Shown: positions 10,437 to 18,994 of the stretch, one piece after another
Layout: the number at the start of each line of letters is the position of its first letter
Numbering within the stretch: the stretch's first letter is position 1
Assembly: GCA_902774215.1 (NCBI GenBank)
Contig: CACYHU010000059.1
Location: 1-39,998, forward strand
Source: an uncultured Chloroflexota bacterium
GTDB lineage: Bacteria; Chloroflexota; Anaerolineae; Anaerolineales; Anaerolineaceae
Length of the DNA: 39,998 bases
Direction: 5' to 3'
The notes under the pieces: model-generated
Seen by the model: the letters and a program-made list of their open reading frames with translations, nothing else
Told to the model about the DNA's origin: nothing
Databases searched by the model: none
Position numbers and translations under genes: made by a program

Positions 10437-12899
10437 TTACCAGATACTTATCCTGTCTTTGGGATCCAGATACATACCGTCACCTTCACGCACATCATAG
10501 GTATCAAGAAATTCATCGAACTGCTGTACAGTCACATTGATCCGAAGGTGATTCAGCGGATGTGCATCATAAATATCAGATCGTTCCCATTCAAGGGTAG
10601 ATTGTTTCCGCCACAGCTCAGAATAGGTCCGGAAGAAGCGGTCGTAATCAAAATCTTCAGTTTTTGCGGCAATGTCCAAACCGATCATCAATCCGCCGAT
10701 ATCTGCGGCTGCCTCTCCCCATTGAGACTTACCCGGACAGGATTCATAAGGAAACGGACGGATTTGATCAAAATAATCAGCGATTTTTTCTGCCCGGTCC
10801 ATAAATGAAAGATAATCTTCCTCAGGCATCCACCCATGCGGTTTTTCATCAGTGACAACCATATTCCCGTCTTTATCATATTTGATCCCGTTAGGATCAA
10901 ATCCATGGGTCAGTTCATGTCCGATGATCTCGCCCAGTAATGCCAGTTTTTCCTCTATCGCCATATCCTGACGATAGATCGAATCCGAAACAAATCCGGA
11001 AAGAATAAAAAACTGATTATAGCAGCCGTAATAAAATGCGTTGCTGACGGTACTGCCGATCCCGGGCTGCAGATCATACCGCCAGTCGCCCTTCTCACGA
11101 AGTGTGCCGGCAAATGCGCCGTTATGCTTCATTCTGTTGACCGTGATTTTTGCATAATTATCAAGGAAAGATTTGTCTTTATCTGCAGCCAGGTAAGAAC
11201 TGTCAATTAAAACATCCGGAAACATCACTGAGAAAGTCATATTATCCAGTTTTTCGATCGCGGCAGTTTTTCCGGCATCAGACAGCCAGTTTTCACGGGA
11301 GAGTCTCTCCCTGAATGTATCCCGTATCTCCTGAGCCAGCTCTATCAGATCTGTACGGGTCTCCGGATCTGCGAAATAAGTCATATAGGCATTTTCAACA
11401 GCAACATTCATCAAACCCTGCCGGGATAATACTTCTGATTGATACCCGCTGTTCAGATTCTCTTTTATTTCTTCTTCAGAAATTGTTTCACTATTCAGAC
11501 AGGATACTGCCTCAAGATCCAGATAGTCACATGATACTGCCGCAATGTGCGCAATGATGTAGGATCTAAACATAGACAGGTTCTCTTCAGTATAGAGCTG
11601 ATCCAGTTTTTTCAGATACCCCGGAAAATATACATGGACTTTCCCGTCACGGATCTGATAAGCATTCAGCAGCTGCTTCAGCGGGAAGTTTTTACAATAC
11701 AAGGTAACTGTATCGACAGGCAGGAATCCGTTCAGAGGGCTGGCTTCATCTGCTTCATCCGGCCATGACAATGGGAGCAGGATCTCTTCCAGCTCATAGC
11801 ACTCACCCATCACCTTTTCAACTTCCTTCTCTGTATAACCTGCACGCAGAAGGACATGCCTTGCCTTGAGATCGAAATCAGCCCGGACCGCTTCGATGTC
11901 CTCTCTGGTCTCATTGTGATAAACTCTCGGCAAAACAGAAAAATTATCCTCAGCGATCTCAGCGGCCCAGTGAGAGGTATCTTTTTCGTCAAGCGTGATC
12001 GTAATACTGAGCAGATAGCAGAAAGGATCCAGTTCAGGGTCGGTCAGAAAATCTGTCAATTCAGAAATAGATGATACATTGGCAGCAGCATCCAGATATT
12101 TTTTCACCGGTTCAATACCCTCTGCTTCCCGTCTTTCCCAGTTCGCTGCAGTATCATAGAAATCACGGATAATCCGGATATCCTCACCCTGATATTTTTC
12201 CCGATCAGTGAACATCATCTTTTTGTTTTCACTGACGATTTTTTCCAGATCAGAAGACAAATCAGAAATTTCTTCCGCTGATTTGCTGTGAACATCAGAG
12301 AGCCATTCATAATTTGATGAGAGGTAGAAATCATTATTAAGGCCAGGATCAGCAATACGTGAGGCAACCCCGATGATGCTCCCATCCACCCACTGATCAT
12401 TTCCAATCCATAACAGCGGTTTTAAGTCGGTCATGTCAGTCTGAGAATAGTCACGTGCGTCATCATCGTTATCTTTAGAAAATGATTTTTCCTCCAGCAT
12501 ATCATTGATAACAGCATATTCCTTATATACATCTCCTGCTGCAGTTTTAATACTGTTTTCGAGATCGTCACCGTAAACCGCAGTCACACCATCGATGGTT
12601 TTGATCATTACAGCTTCATTTTTCTCCGGATCAAACCGGAAAATTTTCAGCCTTCCCGGGTTTTCAGCATCATCAATGATAAACAGCTCTGAAATATCAT
12701 CTTTATCAATATCGTACAGCGTATAACGGGCTCCTTCTTTGTATGAAGCCATTTCTATTCCCGCAAGGTACATGATCTCTTCCGGTTTGAACGCATATTC
12801 AACACCTGAACAAACCGCTGCCGATCCAAATATCAGCATAATTATTATTATGAGTTCAAGTACCACGATCTTTGATTCATAACGTTTTATATTCATCAT
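10437..12899 (-). CDS. M13 (neprilysin/PepO) family zinc metallopeptidase with N-terminal extension
   Basis: The 820-residue protein has an N-terminal hydrophobic signal or anchor (about 9-32). The M13 catalytic signatures are complete: HELTH (H661, H665) and GEAAAD (E729, D733), then the family's closing segment NHLRINVTVQQFDEF with GDGMYLDPKDRISIW at the very end. Typical M13 enzymes have 630-700 residues; the extra 100 or so sit after the signal and contain the acidic motif LYDIDKDDISELFI, like calcium-binding FG-GAP/dockerin-type repeats. It probably degrades oligopeptides outside the cell. The ATG is preceded by CAGGA with good spacing. Monocistronic on the minus strand, divergent from the opp operon. 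Confidence 0.92.
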   Translation of the reverse strand: MMNIKRYESKIVVLELIIIIMLIFGSAAVCSGVEYAFKPEEIMYLAGIEMASYKEGARYTLYDIDKDDISELFIIDDAENPGRLKIFRFDPEKNEAVMIKTIDGVTAVYGDDLENSIKTAAGDVYKEYAVINDMLEEKSFSKDNDDDARDYSQTDMTDLKPLLWIGNDQWVDGSIIGVASRIADPGLNNDFYLSSNYEWLSDVHSKSAEEISDLSSDLEKIVSENKKMMFTDREKYQGEDIRIIRDFYDTAANWERREAEGIEPVKKYLDAAANVSSISELTDFLTDPELDPFCYLLSITITLDEKDTSHWAAEIAEDNFSVLPRVYHNETREDIEAVRADFDLKARHVLLRAGYTEKEVEKVMGECYELEEILLPLSWPDEADEASPLNGFLPVDTVTLYCKNFPLKQLLNAYQIRDGKVHVYFPGYLKKLDQLYTEENLSMFRSYIIAHIAAVSCDYLDLEAVSCLNSETISEEEIKENLNSGYQSEVLSRQGLMNVAVENAYMTYFADPETRTDLIELAQEIRDTFRERLSRENWLSDAGKTAAIEKLDNMTFSVMFPDVLIDSSYLAADKDKSFLDNYAKITVNRMKHNGAFAGTLREKGDWRYDLQPGIGSTVSNAFYYGCYNQFFILSGFVSDSIYRQDMAIEEKLALLGEIIGHELTHGFDPNGIKYDKDGNMVVTDEKPHGWMPEEDYLSFMDRAEKIADYFDQIRPFPYESCPGKSQWGEAAADIGGLMIGLDIAAKTEDFDYDRFFRTYSELWRKQSTLEWERSDIYDAHPLNHLRINVTVQQFDEFLDTYDVREGDGMYLDPKDRISIW

Positions 12900-13083
12900 A
12901 GATTATCCTGCAGTCTTAATGATAAATTTTCCTTGATTATATCAGGGAACCTTTTCTTCGAACCGGTGGAAATGAATCACAGGAGCATAATATTCGTTTC
13001 GGTTGATTATTTTCAGGATTCACTTTGTAATCAACTCATAATGAAAAAATTATTTTACTTAAGAAAGCGCTGAAGTCGAAGTG

Positions 13084-13123
13084 ACCTGTTTTCGTTGACT
13101 CATTTTGAGTCAACAGAACAGGT
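13084..13123. repeat. Inverted repeat between the M13 peptidase and opp operon
   Basis: The arms ACCTGTTttcGTTGACTCA and TGAGTCAACagAACAGGT form a long interrupted palindrome whose core, GTTGACTCA/TGAGTCAAC, is perfect with a 3-nt loop. There is no T-run on either side, so it is more likely an operator or a transcript-stabilising stem than a terminator. The rest of 12900-13361 contains no gene; a second small stem (CAGTTGT/ACAACTG) lies around 13300-13322. Confidence 0.6.
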
Positions 13124-13241
13124 TGCATCGACTCATTTTATACGAGACAGTCAATAATCAGTGTTTCCTTAAACCTGACAATGAATTCTATAGCCCGACA
13201 GACTATTGTTTGGTCAAAAAAATGTCCGGCCTCACTTCATT

Positions 13242-13264
13242 TTTACATCATAACACTTTATAAT
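13242..13264 (+). promoter_or_regulatory. Possible promoter -10 region of the opp operon
   Basis: A perfect TATAAT lies at 13259-13264. The TTTACA at 13242-13247 is too close to serve as its -35; the hexamer at the proper 17-bp distance (TTCATT) is poor. If used, the transcript would have a leader of about 285 nt containing the structured repeat at 13362. Confidence 0.35.
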
Positions 13265-13361
13265 AAAGTACAAAACATCTGTTACCACTTTCCCGGTTAG
13301 CAGTTGTCAGTTATACACAACTGTCTTTCCCGGGATCCGCCAACCGACAAATGGCAATATC

Positions 13362-13543
13362 ATAAAAAGGCCCCCCCTCATTTTACGGGTGAGTCAAAAA
13401 GGAGCCTGATAACACAGCGGGAGCATGGGGGCCTCAGATTCCCGGAAATCAGGCGCAGGCTGCGGCTTTCGCAAACACACAAACTTTCGATCCCACGCCT
13501 TGCGAAGCATGCTCTCTCCGGAATGCAAAGTGAGCTCTCTTAG
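13362..13543 (+). repeat. 180-nt structured repeat, family C, copy 1 (5' leader of opp)
   Basis: Matches 19014-19200 and 28287-28472 along its whole length, all in the same orientation. It begins at ATAAAAAGG and ends 13 nt before the oppB ATG. Predicted folding: a closing stem GAGCATG (13421-13427) with CATGCTC (13508-13514), an inner hairpin starting GGGGGCC, and a stem GCTTTCGCAA with TTGCGAAGC. The closing stem differs from the other copies by compensatory changes. No coding capacity is evident. Its position makes it part of the opp mRNA leader if transcription starts upstream. Confidence 0.85.
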
Positions 13544-13555
13544 GGTTAGGTGAAC

Positions 13556-14575
13556 ATGGGCAAGTATATACTCAAACGCTGCGGATACATCGTACTGGTA
13601 TTTTTGATACTTTCTTTTCTGATGTATGCACTCTATAACCTGATACCGTCAGATCCTGCCCGGCAGGAACTGGAACCCATGCGCCATAGCCTGAAAGCAA
13701 ACGAATATGAAGCGCTTTACCGGCAGACACGACAGCAAATGGGGTTGGATGATCCGCTGATCATACGCTATCTGCGCTGGATGGGCATGTGGAGAGATAC
13801 AGACGGTACCTGTAATGGTGTTCTTCAGGGAAATTTCGGATATTCCAACTTCTATAAAAACAGTGTGATCGAAGTAATAAAGGCACCTATGGGGAATACC
13901 ATCTTCATTAATATTTTCTCCACCATACTCTCCCTCGGCATCACAATTCCGCTCGGCATCTACTGTGCAGTCCACAAGGGAAAACGCTTTGACGGAGCAA
14001 TGCAGGTTGTTACCATGCTGGGGTACAGTATTCCTGTTTACATCATCGCGCTGGTCCTGATGTTCCTGTTCTGTGTCGTATGGCGGATATTCCCGATCAT
14101 GGGCACTAAAACCCCGGGCATGACCTATGCGAACAAATGGCAGGAGTTTGCGGACATGCTTTATCACATTGCACTTCCCGTCATCGTGATGACCATCGGT
14201 TCTCTCGGCGGTATGACCCGTTATGTCCGTTCATCCATGATCGATGCCCTTTCCATGGACTACATCCGCACCGCCCGTGCCAAGGGGCTGAAAGAAAAAG
14301 TTGTCATTTACTCACATGCCTGGCGCAATGCCCTGCTTCCCGTCATCACCTCCATTCTTGGCTGGTTTCTCAGTATCTTCTCCGGTTCCGTTATTATCGA
14401 AAACACATTTTCACTGAACGGTATGGGACGGCTTTACTGGCAGGGACTGAATAACCTTGACTTTGAACTGGTTCTTGCCATTCAGATGTTTTACTCAATC
14501 GTTTCTCTGGTTGGAAGCCTTTTGATCGATATCAGCTACGGATTTGTTGATCCCCGCGTTCGGGTGGATAAATAA
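13556..14575 (+). CDS. oppB: Oligopeptide/dipeptide ABC transporter permease OppB/DppB
   Basis: The ATG at 13556 gives MGKYILKRCGYIVLVFL, the usual opening of this family; a GTG two codons earlier is in frame but the GGTTAGGTGA sequence fits the ATG better. The 339-residue protein has six predicted membrane helices, the first at residues 9-29, then a long extracytoplasmic loop (about 35-105), as in other OppB proteins. The coupling-helix EAA motif is in MDYIRTARAKGLKEKVVIYSHAWRNALLP. First gene of an oppBCDF operon; the next start is 17 nt downstream. It forms the membrane channel with OppC. No binding-protein gene precedes it. Confidence 0.93.
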   Translation: MGKYILKRCGYIVLVFLILSFLMYALYNLIPSDPARQELEPMRHSLKANEYEALYRQTRQQMGLDDPLIIRYLRWMGMWRDTDGTCNGVLQGNFGYSNFYKNSVIEVIKAPMGNTIFINIFSTILSLGITIPLGIYCAVHKGKRFDGAMQVVTMLGYSIPVYIIALVLMFLFCVVWRIFPIMGTKTPGMTYANKWQEFADMLYHIALPVIVMTIGSLGGMTRYVRSSMIDALSMDYIRTARAKGLKEKVVIYSHAWRNALLPVITSILGWFLSIFSGSVIIENTFSLNGMGRLYWQGLNNLDFELVLAIQMFYSIVSLVGSLLIDISYGFVDPRVRVDK

Positions 14576-14592: not shown

Positions 14593-16446
14593 ATGTCTGA
14601 GAAAAACGAATTTTTCCTGTCCCGCTGGTTCAAACGTGCTTTTCATGGTTCCGATCAGGAAATACGGAACATCATGGAGGAAGAACAGGTGGAAACGCCT
14701 TTCAGGACTATAGCAAAGAACTTCTTTGCAAAGCACACCGTTCGTGTCGGGCTTACCGGATTTATCCTTGTCTTCCTTCTTGTTCTGATTGGTCCGCGTT
14801 TTTGGGTACTGGATCTCTCCGAGCAGGATTCTTCATTGGTCAACCTTCCGCCGGGTAATAACATGATGAGTATTCCCTCTGCGCTGAGAGGCAAAATCCG
14901 GGATATTGCTGCCGGGAGAACCTATGGTGTCGCGGTCGATACAGATGGTAAACTTTTCACCTGGGGGCACACGAAAATCACCGATAAGATCGATATCGCC
15001 AATATTCCGGATGAAGTCAGAAATGCTGATCTGGTAATGTTTGCGGCAGGTGATGATCATGTGACTGCAATGGATGAAAACAGGCAGCTTTACGTCTGGG
15101 GCAACACGAGGCTCCAGCAGGGAAACTTCACCAACGAGATGAAAAAGGGCATGAAAAACCCGGACGAAAGCTGGGATATCATCCAGCTCGAAGCCAGCAA
15201 CCAATTTTCAGCAGCCCTTTCATCTGACGGCACACTTTATCTCTGGGGTAACTCCAATCTGGCTGATATTAAATTGCGCAAGCAGTATCAGGGAAATATC
15301 GCAAAGGTCGCATTGACATCTAATGAATATATCTGTCTGCTCAAAGATGGTACAGTCGCTTATACCGGGTACAAAGATAAAGGCTCTGTCTTTGCCGAAA
15401 TTCCGGAAGTACTGAATAACACACGGGTTGTTGACATTGCTGCTACCAGTTCCACTGTCGCCGCAGTAACAGCCGATGGCAGGGTGGTTGTCTGGGGAAA
15501 TGCCAAAAATGGTGAAAAGAATATCCCTGAGTTTTCCGCTCCGGCAAAAAATATTTATGGGGGACGCTTCCATTATGTTGCCTGGCTGGAAAATGGAGAA
15601 GTTCTCGCCTGGGGCTCCAATAAATATCATCAGACAGACGTTCCCGCTTCACTGCATAAAAACGGGAATATCAAAGAAATCTTTACAGGCAACTTCCAGA
15701 ACTACGCTGTGATGAATGACGGTTCTGTCGTCACCTGGGGTCTTAAAGGCTTCTTACTCGGGACTGACGGTTTGGGACGTGATATGCTCACCCGGATCGT
15801 CAACGGCGGACGCATAACCATGACGGTAGGGGCCATCTCCGTGGTCATCGCCGCCTTCATCGGGATCGTTCTCGGCGGTTTAGCCGGTTACTTTGGCGGA
15901 ACTACAGACCTGGTAATCATGCGCATCGCAGAAATCGTCGGCGGCCTGCCGTTCATTCCCTTTGCCATGATCCTTTCTGCGGTTATCGGCTCCCGCCTGG
16001 ACCCGACACAGCGCATGTACCTCATCATGGTCGTTTTGGGAGTTCTTTCGTGGACAGGAATGTGCCGTCTTGTCCGCGCTCAGATACTCGCACAGCGTGA
16101 AATGGAATATGTTACTGCAGCCAGAGCCATGGGCATCCGCGAAAGCAGCATCGTCTTTCGGCACATTCTGCCCAATATCATGTCCCTCGTACTGGTTTCG
16201 CTAACGCTGGACTTTGCCACCTGTATGCTGACAGAATCCACATTGAGTTATTTAGGCTTCGGCATTCCGCTGCCTACTCCTACGTGGGGCAACCTGCTGC
16301 AGGGCGCCAACAACTCCATCGTCATCCAGCAGTACTGGTGGCAGTGGGTCTTTCCTGCCGCTATATTCGGTTTCTGTACGATCTGTATCAACATGATCGG
16401 TGACGGACTTCGCGATGCGGTCGATCCGAAGAGTGCGGAACGCTGA
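14593..16446 (+). CDS. oppC: OppC/DppC-like permease with an inserted seven-repeat RCC1-type beta-propeller
   Basis: The 617-residue protein is about twice the usual OppC length. Order: cytoplasmic N-terminus (1-50), transmembrane helix 1 (about 52-68), then residues 100-385 with seven RCC1-like repeats, each with an AAG/hydrophobic strand and a closing DG.L..WG strand: repeat ends near residues 125, 170, 219, 259, 302, 341 and 383. The OppC sequence then resumes exactly at the normal position, LLGTDGLGRDMLTRI, with five further helices and the EAA motif (ARAMGIRESSIVFRHILPN). By OppC topology the propeller lies outside the membrane, where a binding protein would dock. The frame is intact and the ribosome binding site (AGGAGGG) is strong. 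The role of the propeller is unknown. Confidence 0.93.
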   Translation: MSEKNEFFLSRWFKRAFHGSDQEIRNIMEEEQVETPFRTIAKNFFAKHTVRVGLTGFILVFLLVLIGPRFWVLDLSEQDSSLVNLPPGNNMMSIPSALRGKIRDIAAGRTYGVAVDTDGKLFTWGHTKITDKIDIANIPDEVRNADLVMFAAGDDHVTAMDENRQLYVWGNTRLQQGNFTNEMKKGMKNPDESWDIIQLEASNQFSAALSSDGTLYLWGNSNLADIKLRKQYQGNIAKVALTSNEYICLLKDGTVAYTGYKDKGSVFAEIPEVLNNTRVVDIAATSSTVAAVTADGRVVVWGNAKNGEKNIPEFSAPAKNIYGGRFHYVAWLENGEVLAWGSNKYHQTDVPASLHKNGNIKEIFTGNFQNYAVMNDGSVVTWGLKGFLLGTDGLGRDMLTRIVNGGRITMTVGAISVVIAAFIGIVLGGLAGYFGGTTDLVIMRIAEIVGGLPFIPFAMILSAVIGSRLDPTQRMYLIMVVLGVLSWTGMCRLVRAQILAQREMEYVTAARAMGIRESSIVFRHILPNIMSLVLVSLTLDFATCMLTESTLSYLGFGIPLPTPTWGNLLQGANNSIVIQQYWWQWVFPAAIFGFCTICINMIGDGLRDAVDPKSAER

Positions 16447-16458
16447 GGAGGTAAGAAA

Positions 16459-17457
16459 ATGGCCTTACTTGAACTGAAAGAACTGCATACCTTCTTTAAG
16501 ACCAGAAAAGGTATAGTCAAAGCTGTCAACGGTGTTTCCTACAGCGTAGATGAAGGTAAGACACTGGGCGTTGTCGGAGAATCCGGATCGGGAAAAAGCG
16601 TTTCAGCGATGTCAATTCTTCAGCTTCTGGATGGAAACGGTTATATTGATTCCGGAAAAATATATTTCGATGGGAAAGAACTGACAAAACTTCCGGTCAA
16701 AGAGATCCAAAAGATACGGGGAAATGAAATATCTGTGATCTTTCAGGAACCGATGACTTCTTTGAATCCGGTTTTCACCGTCGATAAACAGGTCTCAGAG
16801 CCCTTCATTATCCATCGGGGCATGAGCAAAAAGGAAGCCTCCGCACATGTTATCGAAATGCTGAAGGATGTCAGGATCCCAAATCCTGAAGCTGTCGCCA
16901 AACAATACCCGCACCAGCTTTCCGGTGGGATGCGGCAGCGTGTAATGATAGCCATGGCACTGGCCTGTCGTCCAAAGCTGCTCATCGCGGACGAACCCAC
17001 CACCGCACTTGATGTAACCATTCAGGCACAGATCCTGAAACTTATGAATGATCTCAAACGGGAACATGGCACGTCCATCCTCTTCATCACTCATGACCTC
17101 GGTGTTATCGCCCGGATGGCAGATGATGTAGCTGTGATGTACTGCGGACAGGTAGTGGAAATGGCACCGGCACGAACTATCTTCACAAAATCCGTTTTTT
17201 CTCATCCTTACACCGAAGGACTGATGGTCTCCATCCCAAGGCTGGATACACCGGCAAATGAACGGCTTGATGCCATTCCGGGCGCTGTACCTCATCCCTT
17301 AGATCTGCCGAAAGGATGCAAATTCGGTCCCCGCTGCAAATACTGTACAGACCAATGTATTGAAGAAGAACCTGAATTGAAGGAAGTTATGCCGGGACAG
17401 CAAGTCCGCTGTTTCCACGCCAACAAGGAGGAACGCCATGCAAGACCTGCAAAATAA
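16459..17457 (+). CDS. oppD: Oligopeptide ABC transporter ATP-binding protein OppD/DppD
   Basis: The 332 residues are of normal length. Walker A GESGSGKS (40-47), Q-loop VIFQEPMTSLNP (93-104), signature LSGGMRQ (154-160), Walker B LLIADEP (174-180) and the H-loop histidine H212 are all present. The C-terminal oligopeptide-transporter domain has the cysteine cluster C287, C293, C296, C300 and C318, which in this family can hold an iron-sulfur cluster. It pairs with OppF to power peptide import through OppBC. GAGGAGG precedes the ATG; the end overlaps oppF by 20 nt. In contrast with OppF there is no insertion. Confidence 0.95.
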   Translation: MALLELKELHTFFKTRKGIVKAVNGVSYSVDEGKTLGVVGESGSGKSVSAMSILQLLDGNGYIDSGKIYFDGKELTKLPVKEIQKIRGNEISVIFQEPMTSLNPVFTVDKQVSEPFIIHRGMSKKEASAHVIEMLKDVRIPNPEAVAKQYPHQLSGGMRQRVMIAMALACRPKLLIADEPTTALDVTIQAQILKLMNDLKREHGTSILFITHDLGVIARMADDVAVMYCGQVVEMAPARTIFTKSVFSHPYTEGLMVSIPRLDTPANERLDAIPGAVPHPLDLPKGCKFGPRCKYCTDQCIEEEPELKEVMPGQQVRCFHANKEERHARPAK

Positions 17458-18994
17458 TCCCCGGAAGCCGCTCTTACGAATCAGCAGCCTTAAACAATAC
17501 TTTCCGCTGAAAACCAAAGGCTTATACGTCAAAGCCAACGACGGCATAACGCTTGATATCTATGAAGGCGAAACACTGGGTCTTGTGGGTGAATCCGGCT
17601 GCGGAAAATCAACTTTTGGACGGACTCTTTTGCAGTTGTATAAGCAGACCGATGGGCGCACCATGTATTACGGCAGATCAATTTATGATCTTGCGCCAAA
17701 ATATGTGGAAAAAACCATCAGAGATATGGACAAAAACAGGAAAAAATTGGCAAAACTGGAACAAAAGCGGGATGCTGTCGAAAGAGAGTATAATGCTATG
17801 CCTGATGGAAAAGAAAAATACCAAAAGCGCAATGAACTCGATGCAGCCCGTAAAGCTGCAAATGATATTTTTCTGGATATGGCAAACATTCTCGGCGGGT
17901 TTATTATGGCGGAGGATACCCAACCGGTGATCCATGCTTTCAGCAACGTATATAAAATCAGTGTCCGGCTGCGAAAAGAGAATCTCGCATTGGATGAAGC
18001 GAATCTGGAGCTTGCTGATGCGGAGTTCAATCTGAAAAAAACGAAAGAAAACGGAAAAAACAGCACTTCCGAAGAAAACAAAGTTCAAAGGGCTAAAAAT
18101 AAAACGCAGGAGATCCGGAACAGGATCGAAAGCATCCGAAAGGAACTGGAACAGGCTGAGAAACAAATAGATAAAATGCGCGAGCCATATAAAAACAACG
18201 CGGAATTCCGGCGGCTGGAAGAATTTCGGGATGATGGCATTGATCTGGCCCGTCTGGATTACGAAGAGATCCGTCACCTGCGCACTGATTTGCAGATGAT
18301 TTTCCAGGATCCCTATTCTTCTCTGAACCCGCGTATGACTGTCGGACAGATCATTTCCGAAGGTTTGCTGGCTCATAATTATTTCAAAAAGAATGACGAA
18401 CGGATGCAGGAATATATACTCAAGGTCATGGATGATGCCGGATTACAGCCTTATTTTATCCATCGCTATCCGCACCAGTTTTCAGGCGGGCAGCGTCAGC
18501 GTATCGGGATCGCCCGGTCGCTTGCTGTTCAGCCGCGGTTTGTGGTCTGTGATGAAGCAGTCTCCGCACTGGATGTTTCCATCCAGTCTCAGATACTGAA
18601 TCTCCTGCAGGATCTCAAGGAACAACAGCACCTGACTTACCTTTTCATTACCCACGATATGGCCGTTGTGAAATACATCTCCAACCGAATCGGCGTCATG
18701 TACCTCGGGAACATTGTGGAATTGGCAGACTCACAGGAGATCTTTGATCATCCTCTCCATCCTTATACGGAAGCCCTGATGAATGCCATACCGACAACTG
18801 ATGTGATAAACGGCAAAGAAATGCAGATTTTGGAAGGTGACATTCCCAGCCCGATAAATCCGCCGGATGGCTGCAAATTCCATACCCGCTGTAAATACTG
18901 CACAGAAATATGCAAACATCAGATACCCGAATGGAGAGAAGCTGCTCCAAATCATTTCACAGCCTGCCACCATATATTGGGTAACAGAGGATAG
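17438..18994 (+). CDS. oppF: Oligopeptide ABC transporter ATP-binding protein OppF/DppF with a large coiled-coil insertion
   Basis: The 518 residues exceed the usual 310-330. Walker A GESGCGKST (51-59) is followed by about 190 extra residues (about 85-275) before the Q-loop MIFQDPYSSLNPRMTV (287-302). The insertion is rich in Lys and Glu, reads as two long antiparallel helical segments (DMDKNRKKLAKLEQKRDAV and IRNRIESIRKELEQAEKQI), and is frame-intact. Signature FSGGQRQRIGIARS (348-361), Walker B RFVVCDEAVSALD (367-379) and H-loop follow, then the cysteine cluster C479, C485, C488, C492, C510. All catalytic motifs are kept, so it should be an active ATPase. AAGGAGG precedes the start; it overlaps the end of oppD. 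Confidence 0.93.
   Translation: MQDLQNNPRKPLLRISSLKQYFPLKTKGLYVKANDGITLDIYEGETLGLVGESGCGKSTFGRTLLQLYKQTDGRTMYYGRSIYDLAPKYVEKTIRDMDKNRKKLAKLEQKRDAVEREYNAMPDGKEKYQKRNELDAARKAANDIFLDMANILGGFIMAEDTQPVIHAFSNVYKISVRLRKENLALDEANLELADAEFNLKKTKENGKNSTSEENKVQRAKNKTQEIRNRIESIRKELEQAEKQIDKMREPYKNNAEFRRLEEFRDDGIDLARLDYEEIRHLRTDLQMIFQDPYSSLNPRMTVGQIISEGLLAHNYFKKNDERMQEYILKVMDDAGLQPYFIHRYPHQFSGGQRQRIGIARSLAVQPRFVVCDEAVSALDVSIQSQILNLLQDLKEQQHLTYLFITHDMAVVKYISNRIGVMYLGNIVELADSQEIFDHPLHPYTEALMNAIPTTDVINGKEMQILEGDIPSPINPPDGCKFHTRCKYCTEICKHQIPEWREAAPNHFTACHHILGNRG

Follow-up and report, generated by a model that had tools for sequence, protein, structure and literature searches.

Few nutrient pumps have been studied as thoroughly as the Opp/Dpp importers. 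OppBCDF import with a binding protein, and capture is generally explained by this substrate-binding protein (SBP) and by short external loops alone. The loop between transmembrane helices 1 and 2 (TM1-TM2) of the OppC family is external, and in most Opp/Dpp systems the SBP docks with no separate domain of the kind described below. Such external additions are known from other importers: MalF, of the type I maltose importer, carries P2, a separately folded external loop domain, while OpuA and GlnPQ have the binding protein fused to the permease. According to a title cited in PMC3328499, the interaction of the P2 loop of MalF with MalE lasts over the whole catalytic cycle, and PMC7756565 mentions a MalE-MalF fusion.

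The importer considered here resembles OppC/DppC (solved as 8z21 and 8z1v, respectively; NCBIfam Opp4C) in its BPD_transp_1 domain, its GTD..GRD motif and its OppB/OppD/OppF operon, but has about 290 extra residues, predicted to form a propeller, in the TM1-TM2 loop. It shares the propeller with BLIP-II and RCC1-like proteins (the best Foldseek alignments show 22-23% identity), yet differs from BLIP-II in that the propeller is built into a membrane transporter. Like the SBP-permease fusions (OpuA, GlnPQ, MalE-MalF), it bears an extra, probably external domain covalently attached to a permease; in this case, however, that domain is a propeller and a separate SBP is retained in the relatives. 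The likeness to MalF P2, which belongs to another permease family, another loop and another fold, would be one of analogy and would lie in the proposed contact with the SBP. No published account of a propeller-bearing OppC was found among the open-licence matches listed, which were judged partly by title or by the start of the abstract. This agrees with the initial annotation, whose author knew of no such transporter, and, as far as the literature was searched, the fusion importer is thus an undescribed variant of a well-known one.

The whole stretch of DNA analyzed, hereafter the window, comprises 39,998 nucleotides from an uncultured Chloroflexota bacterium of the Anaerolineaceae (contig CACYHU010000059.1); its relevant features are collected in Table 1. 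The fusion gene is an unbroken frame that starts with ATG, and the order of Pfam matches along it confirmed the initial reading, in which TM1, RCC1-like repeats and the remainder of OppC follow each other in one intact frame. OppC_N (PF12911) lies where expected, at 21.9 bits slightly below its cut-off of 23.9. WD40_RLD/RCC1-like (PF25390; 2e-46, 159.4 bits, cut-off 150) and RCC1_2 (PF13540; five stretches, 1.9e-31, 107.5 bits, cut-off 22) come next, followed by BPD_transp_1 (PF00528) at residues 424-613 (4.1e-31, 108.6 bits, cut-off 26.4). PF00415 alone gave no match anywhere, controls included, and is therefore uninformative. The claim that OppC sequence resumes at GTDGLGRD (390-397) was borne out: of 14 listed NCBIfam models of OppC type, 12 begin matching at residues 383-389 and the other two at 366 and 377, all scoring below their cut-offs (the top one, Opp4C, reached 278 of 350 bits), while five solved OppC/DppC-type chains begin aligning at 383-388, just ahead of the motif. 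No DNA repeat was found within the gene, so the blades have diverged, and GC content across it (0.45-0.55) can be compared with 0.44-0.51 in the neighbouring genes.

Table 1 Features of the window relevant to the fusion importer, with coordinates in the window
Feature	Coordinates	Strand	Basis or remark
PepO-like M13 peptidase gene	10437-12899	-	upstream of and divergent to oppB; position of the binding-protein gene in relatives
Stretch upstream of oppB	12900..13549		position of the binding-protein gene in relatives; only one 79-aa ORF here
OppB permease partner	13550..14575	+	PF00528 7.2e-39, PF19300 8.3e-09
OppC permease with propeller insert, 617 aa	14593..16446	+	one ATG frame; 61 fusions compared
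OppC N-terminal transmembrane region, residues 35-87	14695..14853	+	PF12911 and hydropathy peak 49-67
Seven-bladed RCC1/BLIP-II-like propeller (predicted), residues 95-385	14875..15747	+	PF25390, PF13540, AlphaFold2, Foldseek
Rest of OppC (GTD..GRD motif, BPD_transp_1)	15748..16443	+	Pfam, NCBIfam, solved chains
OppD ATPase	16459..17457	+	PF00005, PF08352; top NCBIfam model PRK09473 OppD, below cut-off
OppF ATPase, 518 aa, with helical insert	17438..18994	+	PRK15079 OppF, two stretches, below cut-off
Helical insert in OppF (predicted), residues 82-265, in the Walker A to Q-loop interval	17681..18232	+	AlphaFold2

The proposal that seven repeats close a propeller was followed up by structure prediction on the single OppC chain, using the window protein and 11 relatives from named records as AlphaFold2 input. 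As proposed, seven three-stranded blades were predicted, with DSSP assigning 21 strands, three to each blade, between residues 102 and 382, at pLDDT values of 59-91 per 10-residue block over residues 91-380. Foldseek against the PDB returned BLIP-II as the top match (E 1.2e-17, TM 0.81 by target length), followed by UVR8 and, lower down, the CRINKLY ectodomain, RPGR, RCC1 and HERC2. Several of the BLIP-II and UVR8 entries listed among the best solved folds are protein complexes. BLIP-II was also the best non-permease match in a sequence search of solved chains (1.2e-23). OppC is thus modelled with a closed seven-bladed propeller. As the permease part was poorly modelled (block pLDDT of at most 66 past residue 400; mean pLDDT of 63.8 and pTM of 0.53 for the whole model), the model is uninformative on how the propeller is oriented relative to the membrane part. 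The propeller does lie, as claimed, in the TM1-TM2 loop of a permease encoded in a transporter operon, and its external position would follow from family topology and, weakly, from the segment after TM1, in which none of the 25 residues 70-94 is Lys or Arg. Residues 1-50 hold eight Lys/Arg and also eight Asp/Glu, so that the charge rule is weak here. Extra residues in this loop were also seen by eye in four plain OppC proteins (L155, L176, L178 and L182, about 80-100 residues each), and the loop seems tolerant of inserts.

A search for RCC1 domains in such permeases and a mapping of the taxa that carry them had been suggested, and both located the fusion in one Anaerolineaceae genus, in Clostridia and in an Erysipelotrichaceae family. 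All of the counts that follow come from tool-drawn, non-exhaustive genome samples. In the window's genus, four of 14 genomes, the window's included, carry the fusion, the other three copies being 86-89% identical to that of the window. A propeller-profile scan of named genomes gave 12 loci, three from records labelled Chloroflexi or Anaerolineaceae (L020, L021 and L030), eight labelled Clostridia or Clostridiales (L022-L029; the site, where named, is ruminant gut) and one labelled Erysipelotrichaceae (L031). In the family of the latter genome, propeller matches occur in 50 of 195 sampled genomes and fusions in at least 33 (30 with both parts in one frame, L116 and L117 by near-full-length alignment, and G078 confirmed). 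Seven weaker matches in this family, read at length, were not fusions (L110-L112, L114, L115 and L119 have no Opp homologue; L113 was matched by the propeller part alone). At the level of its phylum, 14 of 392 genomes match at E<=1e-35, all 14 with fusions and 12 of them also present in the family sample. The class of the Clostridia genome G063 yielded matches at E<=1e-12 in 66 of 391 sampled genomes, with 17 confirmed fusions (G063 counted) and three other fetched loci that have no permease part. The corresponding figure for the window's phylum is 32 of 301 at the same threshold, with the window as the only confirmed fusion and 14 other fetched loci having no permease part. No relatives were found on viral contigs. 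Two genomes were seen to hold two fusion operons each (L026 and L109 in G066; L087 and L118 in G173). The fusion represents an old subfamily common to a set of gut and rumen bacteria, beyond one genome.

The history of the fusion was examined in a tree of the permease part alone, comprising 61 fusions and 33 rows of plain OppC (one protein appearing twice), the source genomes of which hold a fusion as well. One fusion, L029:8999-10817 (genome G069, the same as L045), is split into two overlapping frames of 296 and 360 aa; its pieces were left unjoined and excluded. All fusions fell on one side of a branch with SH-aLRT 99 and thus appear to form a single clade, in a tree made by a quick method with long-branch warnings, L116 and L117 among the fusions concerned. 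The fusion junction recurs across copies, with variations. The Anaerolineaceae copies (SH-aLRT 98) join L022 (96) inside the Clostridia copies (98), and this nesting points to transfer from Clostridia into the genus. The tree thus suggests that the Anaerolineaceae genus acquired the fusion horizontally, with the labels of draft genomes as the weak point.

The propeller is under purifying selection, yet diverges faster than the permease. Between the window and its three genus relatives, dN/dS was 0.055, 0.039 and 0.045 for the propeller and 0.021, 0.049 and 0.042 for the permease, with synonymous sites near or past saturation. Of five Clostridia copies compared with the window, three gave a propeller ratio of 0.043-0.077 and two an undefined one, and in four further pairs the ratio was 0.035, 0.041, 0.12 and 0.18, compared with 0.036, 0.016, 0.056 and 0.097 for the permease. 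Propeller identity was lower than permease identity in all 1830 of 1830 pairs (medians 0.33 vs 0.56). Conservation amounted to 1.96 bits over the whole propeller, 2.83 at the junction (383-400) and 2.93 in the permease; among the blades, 1 (2.47) and 7 (2.44), which are those joined to the permease, were highest and blade 4 (1.89) lowest. The top single columns are mostly Trp and Gly of the repeats, plus residues of blade 7 and of the junction.

The genes around the fusion read as an Opp/Dpp-type operon of OppB, OppC, OppD and OppF, and the transporter would, by family, be a peptide importer. Among 45 fusion operons read at length, OppB was recognised in 44, OppD in 44, OppF in 43 and an SBP gene in 41; this gene is of the SBP_bac_5 type and is found together with oppB. 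OppD and OppF were unrecognised in L116, as was OppF in L117, and some operons place OppF ahead of OppD. Three of the four operons that have no SBP gene are cut by contig ends (L026, L109 and L108, the last with a 100-aa edge piece). The fourth is that of the window: a gap of about 650 bp precedes its oppB, whose start in relatives corresponds to the ATG at 13556, and no SBP homologue was found within the window. Contig 37 of the same genome, however, encodes two close homologues of the operon SBP (64% and 53% identical), which probably serve the window's transporter, and the genome holds three remote ones (27-28%). The genus has three other carriers, and in each of these the one SBP match at E<=1e-60 is the copy adjoining the fusion. 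The closest solved SBP is 9p48, the source organism of which was not found in the open-licence literature. The 53% homologue is part of a 1496-aa protein (L047:8064-12554, minus strand) that combines a signal-like start, a GH3 part, Sel1 repeats and SBP_bac_5; the GH3 part, at 188.9 bits, stays below the beta-N-acetylhexosaminidase cut-off of 207, and its motif KHFPGHG..DSH is NagZ-like. The gene stands in a row with those of a Sel1 protein, an orphan SBP and an amidase-sortase protein.

The idea that the propeller is a general stand-in for the lipid anchor of the SBP was rejected: by a pattern of our own, 30 of 40 operon SBPs examined have a lipobox. Nine of the ten others belong to the window's clade, and the tenth, L096, is truncated at its start by a contig end; the signal peptide of the L023 SBP was checked separately. 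By eye, a clear lipobox is also missing from two other SBP-like proteins encoded in the window's genome, so the lack is not specific to this transporter.

OppF of these operons carries an addition of its own. In the window, the insert of about 180 residues was predicted as helices 97-120, 125-157, 162-204 and 210-251, with block pLDDT of 75-93 over residues 91-260, while the ATPase itself was poorly modelled. The interval from Walker A to the Q-loop is 235 residues in the window and 163-236 in 43 operon OppF frames, one of which adjoins the broken fusion L029; the frame of L104 has no Walker A/Q-loop pattern. The one plain OppF measured (L028) has 45.

We consider that the best-fitting of the roles proposed in the initial annotation is that of a platform on which the cognate SBP_bac_5 protein docks and is retained, and give it a probability of roughly 45%. 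The propeller would project from the external TM1-TM2 loop of OppC, over or beside the pore entrance, and would hold the SBP near OppB/OppC; perhaps it also signals the loaded state of the SBP, as the P2 loop of MalF does with MalE. In the window's genome, the docked SBP would probably be encoded at an unlinked locus. We infer this role from the SBP being external and kept in nearly all operons, from the propeller being of a type that binds proteins and from the precedent of MalF P2. The two SBP homologues kept on contig 37 and the low dN/dS of the propeller within the genus also speak for it.

Correlations of evolutionary distance were also considered. Completeness allowed 37 of the 45 operons to be used, a set that dropping near-copies reduced to 18. 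In this set of 18, with the other subunits removed, expected contacts were recovered (partial r of 0.65 for OppB and the OppC permease part, 0.53 for SBP and OppB, 0.39 for the permease part and OppF, and 0.34 for OppD and OppF), and the propeller correlated with the SBP (0.37, permutation p 0.001) and not with its own permease part (-0.18). It also correlated with OppF (0.43, p 0.004) and OppD (0.22, p 0.02), and as both are cytoplasmic and out of its reach, the correlation with the SBP is unspecific and lends docking weak support. In the set of 37, with the permease parts controlled, the propeller gave 0.62 with OppD and 0.34 with the SBP. Net charges of propeller and SBP correlated at r 0.43, with no control applied. 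Further points count against docking. Most Opp/Dpp systems manage it with no such domain, the window's operon has no SBP gene, and conservation of the propeller is below that of the permease, which also fits an external partner specific to each lineage.

A first alternative is that the propeller acts at the surface as a receptor or tether whose target is not the SBP. Peptidoglycan, a feed polymer, or a hydrolase or peptidase of the surface could be that target, and the importer would then be placed where substrate is released. Besides the faster divergence of the propeller, the nearby M13 PepO-like gene of the window, the peptidase gene near the fusion in three relatives, and the GH3-Sel1-SBP protein on contig 37 would agree with such a role. 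That peptidase gene lies directly 3' of the operon (L020:14480-15520, L021:14521-15558 and L030:14444-15481; the window has none in that position) and is M42-like, as judged by a scan of the L020 copy alone that scored below cut-off. Nonetheless, no further neighbour is common, by eye, to the 12 gene-listed loci, and the Pfam matches of the fusion include no domain for binding to wall or carbohydrate. We thus regard a receptor or tether as somewhat unlikely. It is unlikely, too, that the propeller acts as a permanently attached hub at which exchangeable SBPs dock. In that case the window's operon would have given up its own SBP for unlinked ones; one of these, joined to a NagZ-like glycosidase with Sel1 repeats, would be a wall hydrolase that passes its product directly to the pump, and the OppF insert would be a matching cytoplasmic addition of the subfamily.

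The propeller might instead serve mostly as structure, fixed on the permease as a lid, a spacer or an aid to assembly that has no dedicated partner. The high conservation of blades 1 and 7, and of a junction conserved nearly at the level of the permease, would suit such a part. Purifying selection and the keeping of seven blades over deep divergence suggest a working surface, although both are compatible with structure alone, and we consider a purely structural role to be quite unlikely.

That the propeller itself captures peptide, taking over from or supplementing the binding protein, is improbable. The central face of a propeller is often a ligand-binding site, and the missing SBP gene in the window's operon would fit this reading; however, every operon with room on its contig, except that of the window, has an SBP gene, and the window's genome keeps its two close SBP homologues. 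The proposal in the initial annotation that the propeller replaces the binding protein is accordingly not supported: with the SBP gene kept in nearly all fusion operons and three of the four misses at contig edges, replacement is unlikely in the subfamily, and the two homologues elsewhere in the genome speak against it for the window.

An artefact of assembly or gene calling, to which the fragmented draft state of the window's genome (240 contigs) might give rise, can be dismissed, as the fusion is found in 61 compared proteins on separate contigs, including contigs of three other genus genomes and of dozens of others, and forms one clade on the permease tree. Five fusions sit on contigs of 1.7-2.4 Mb. 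Kin of the TrkH gene on the window's contig, 73-83% identical, occur in four other genus genomes, of which three carry the fusion; this speaks against a foreign contig. It had been said that absence of the fusion from all related genomes, together with evidence of misassembly, would refute the observation; relatives in the genus and beyond do carry the fusion.

For the biology of these importers, a propeller fixed on the pump makes the question of how an SBP finds and stays on its permease testable, as it offers a soluble domain that can be expressed separately. The clade with the propeller has been kept in Erysipelotrichaceae and Clostridia and was probably passed on to an Anaerolineaceae genus.
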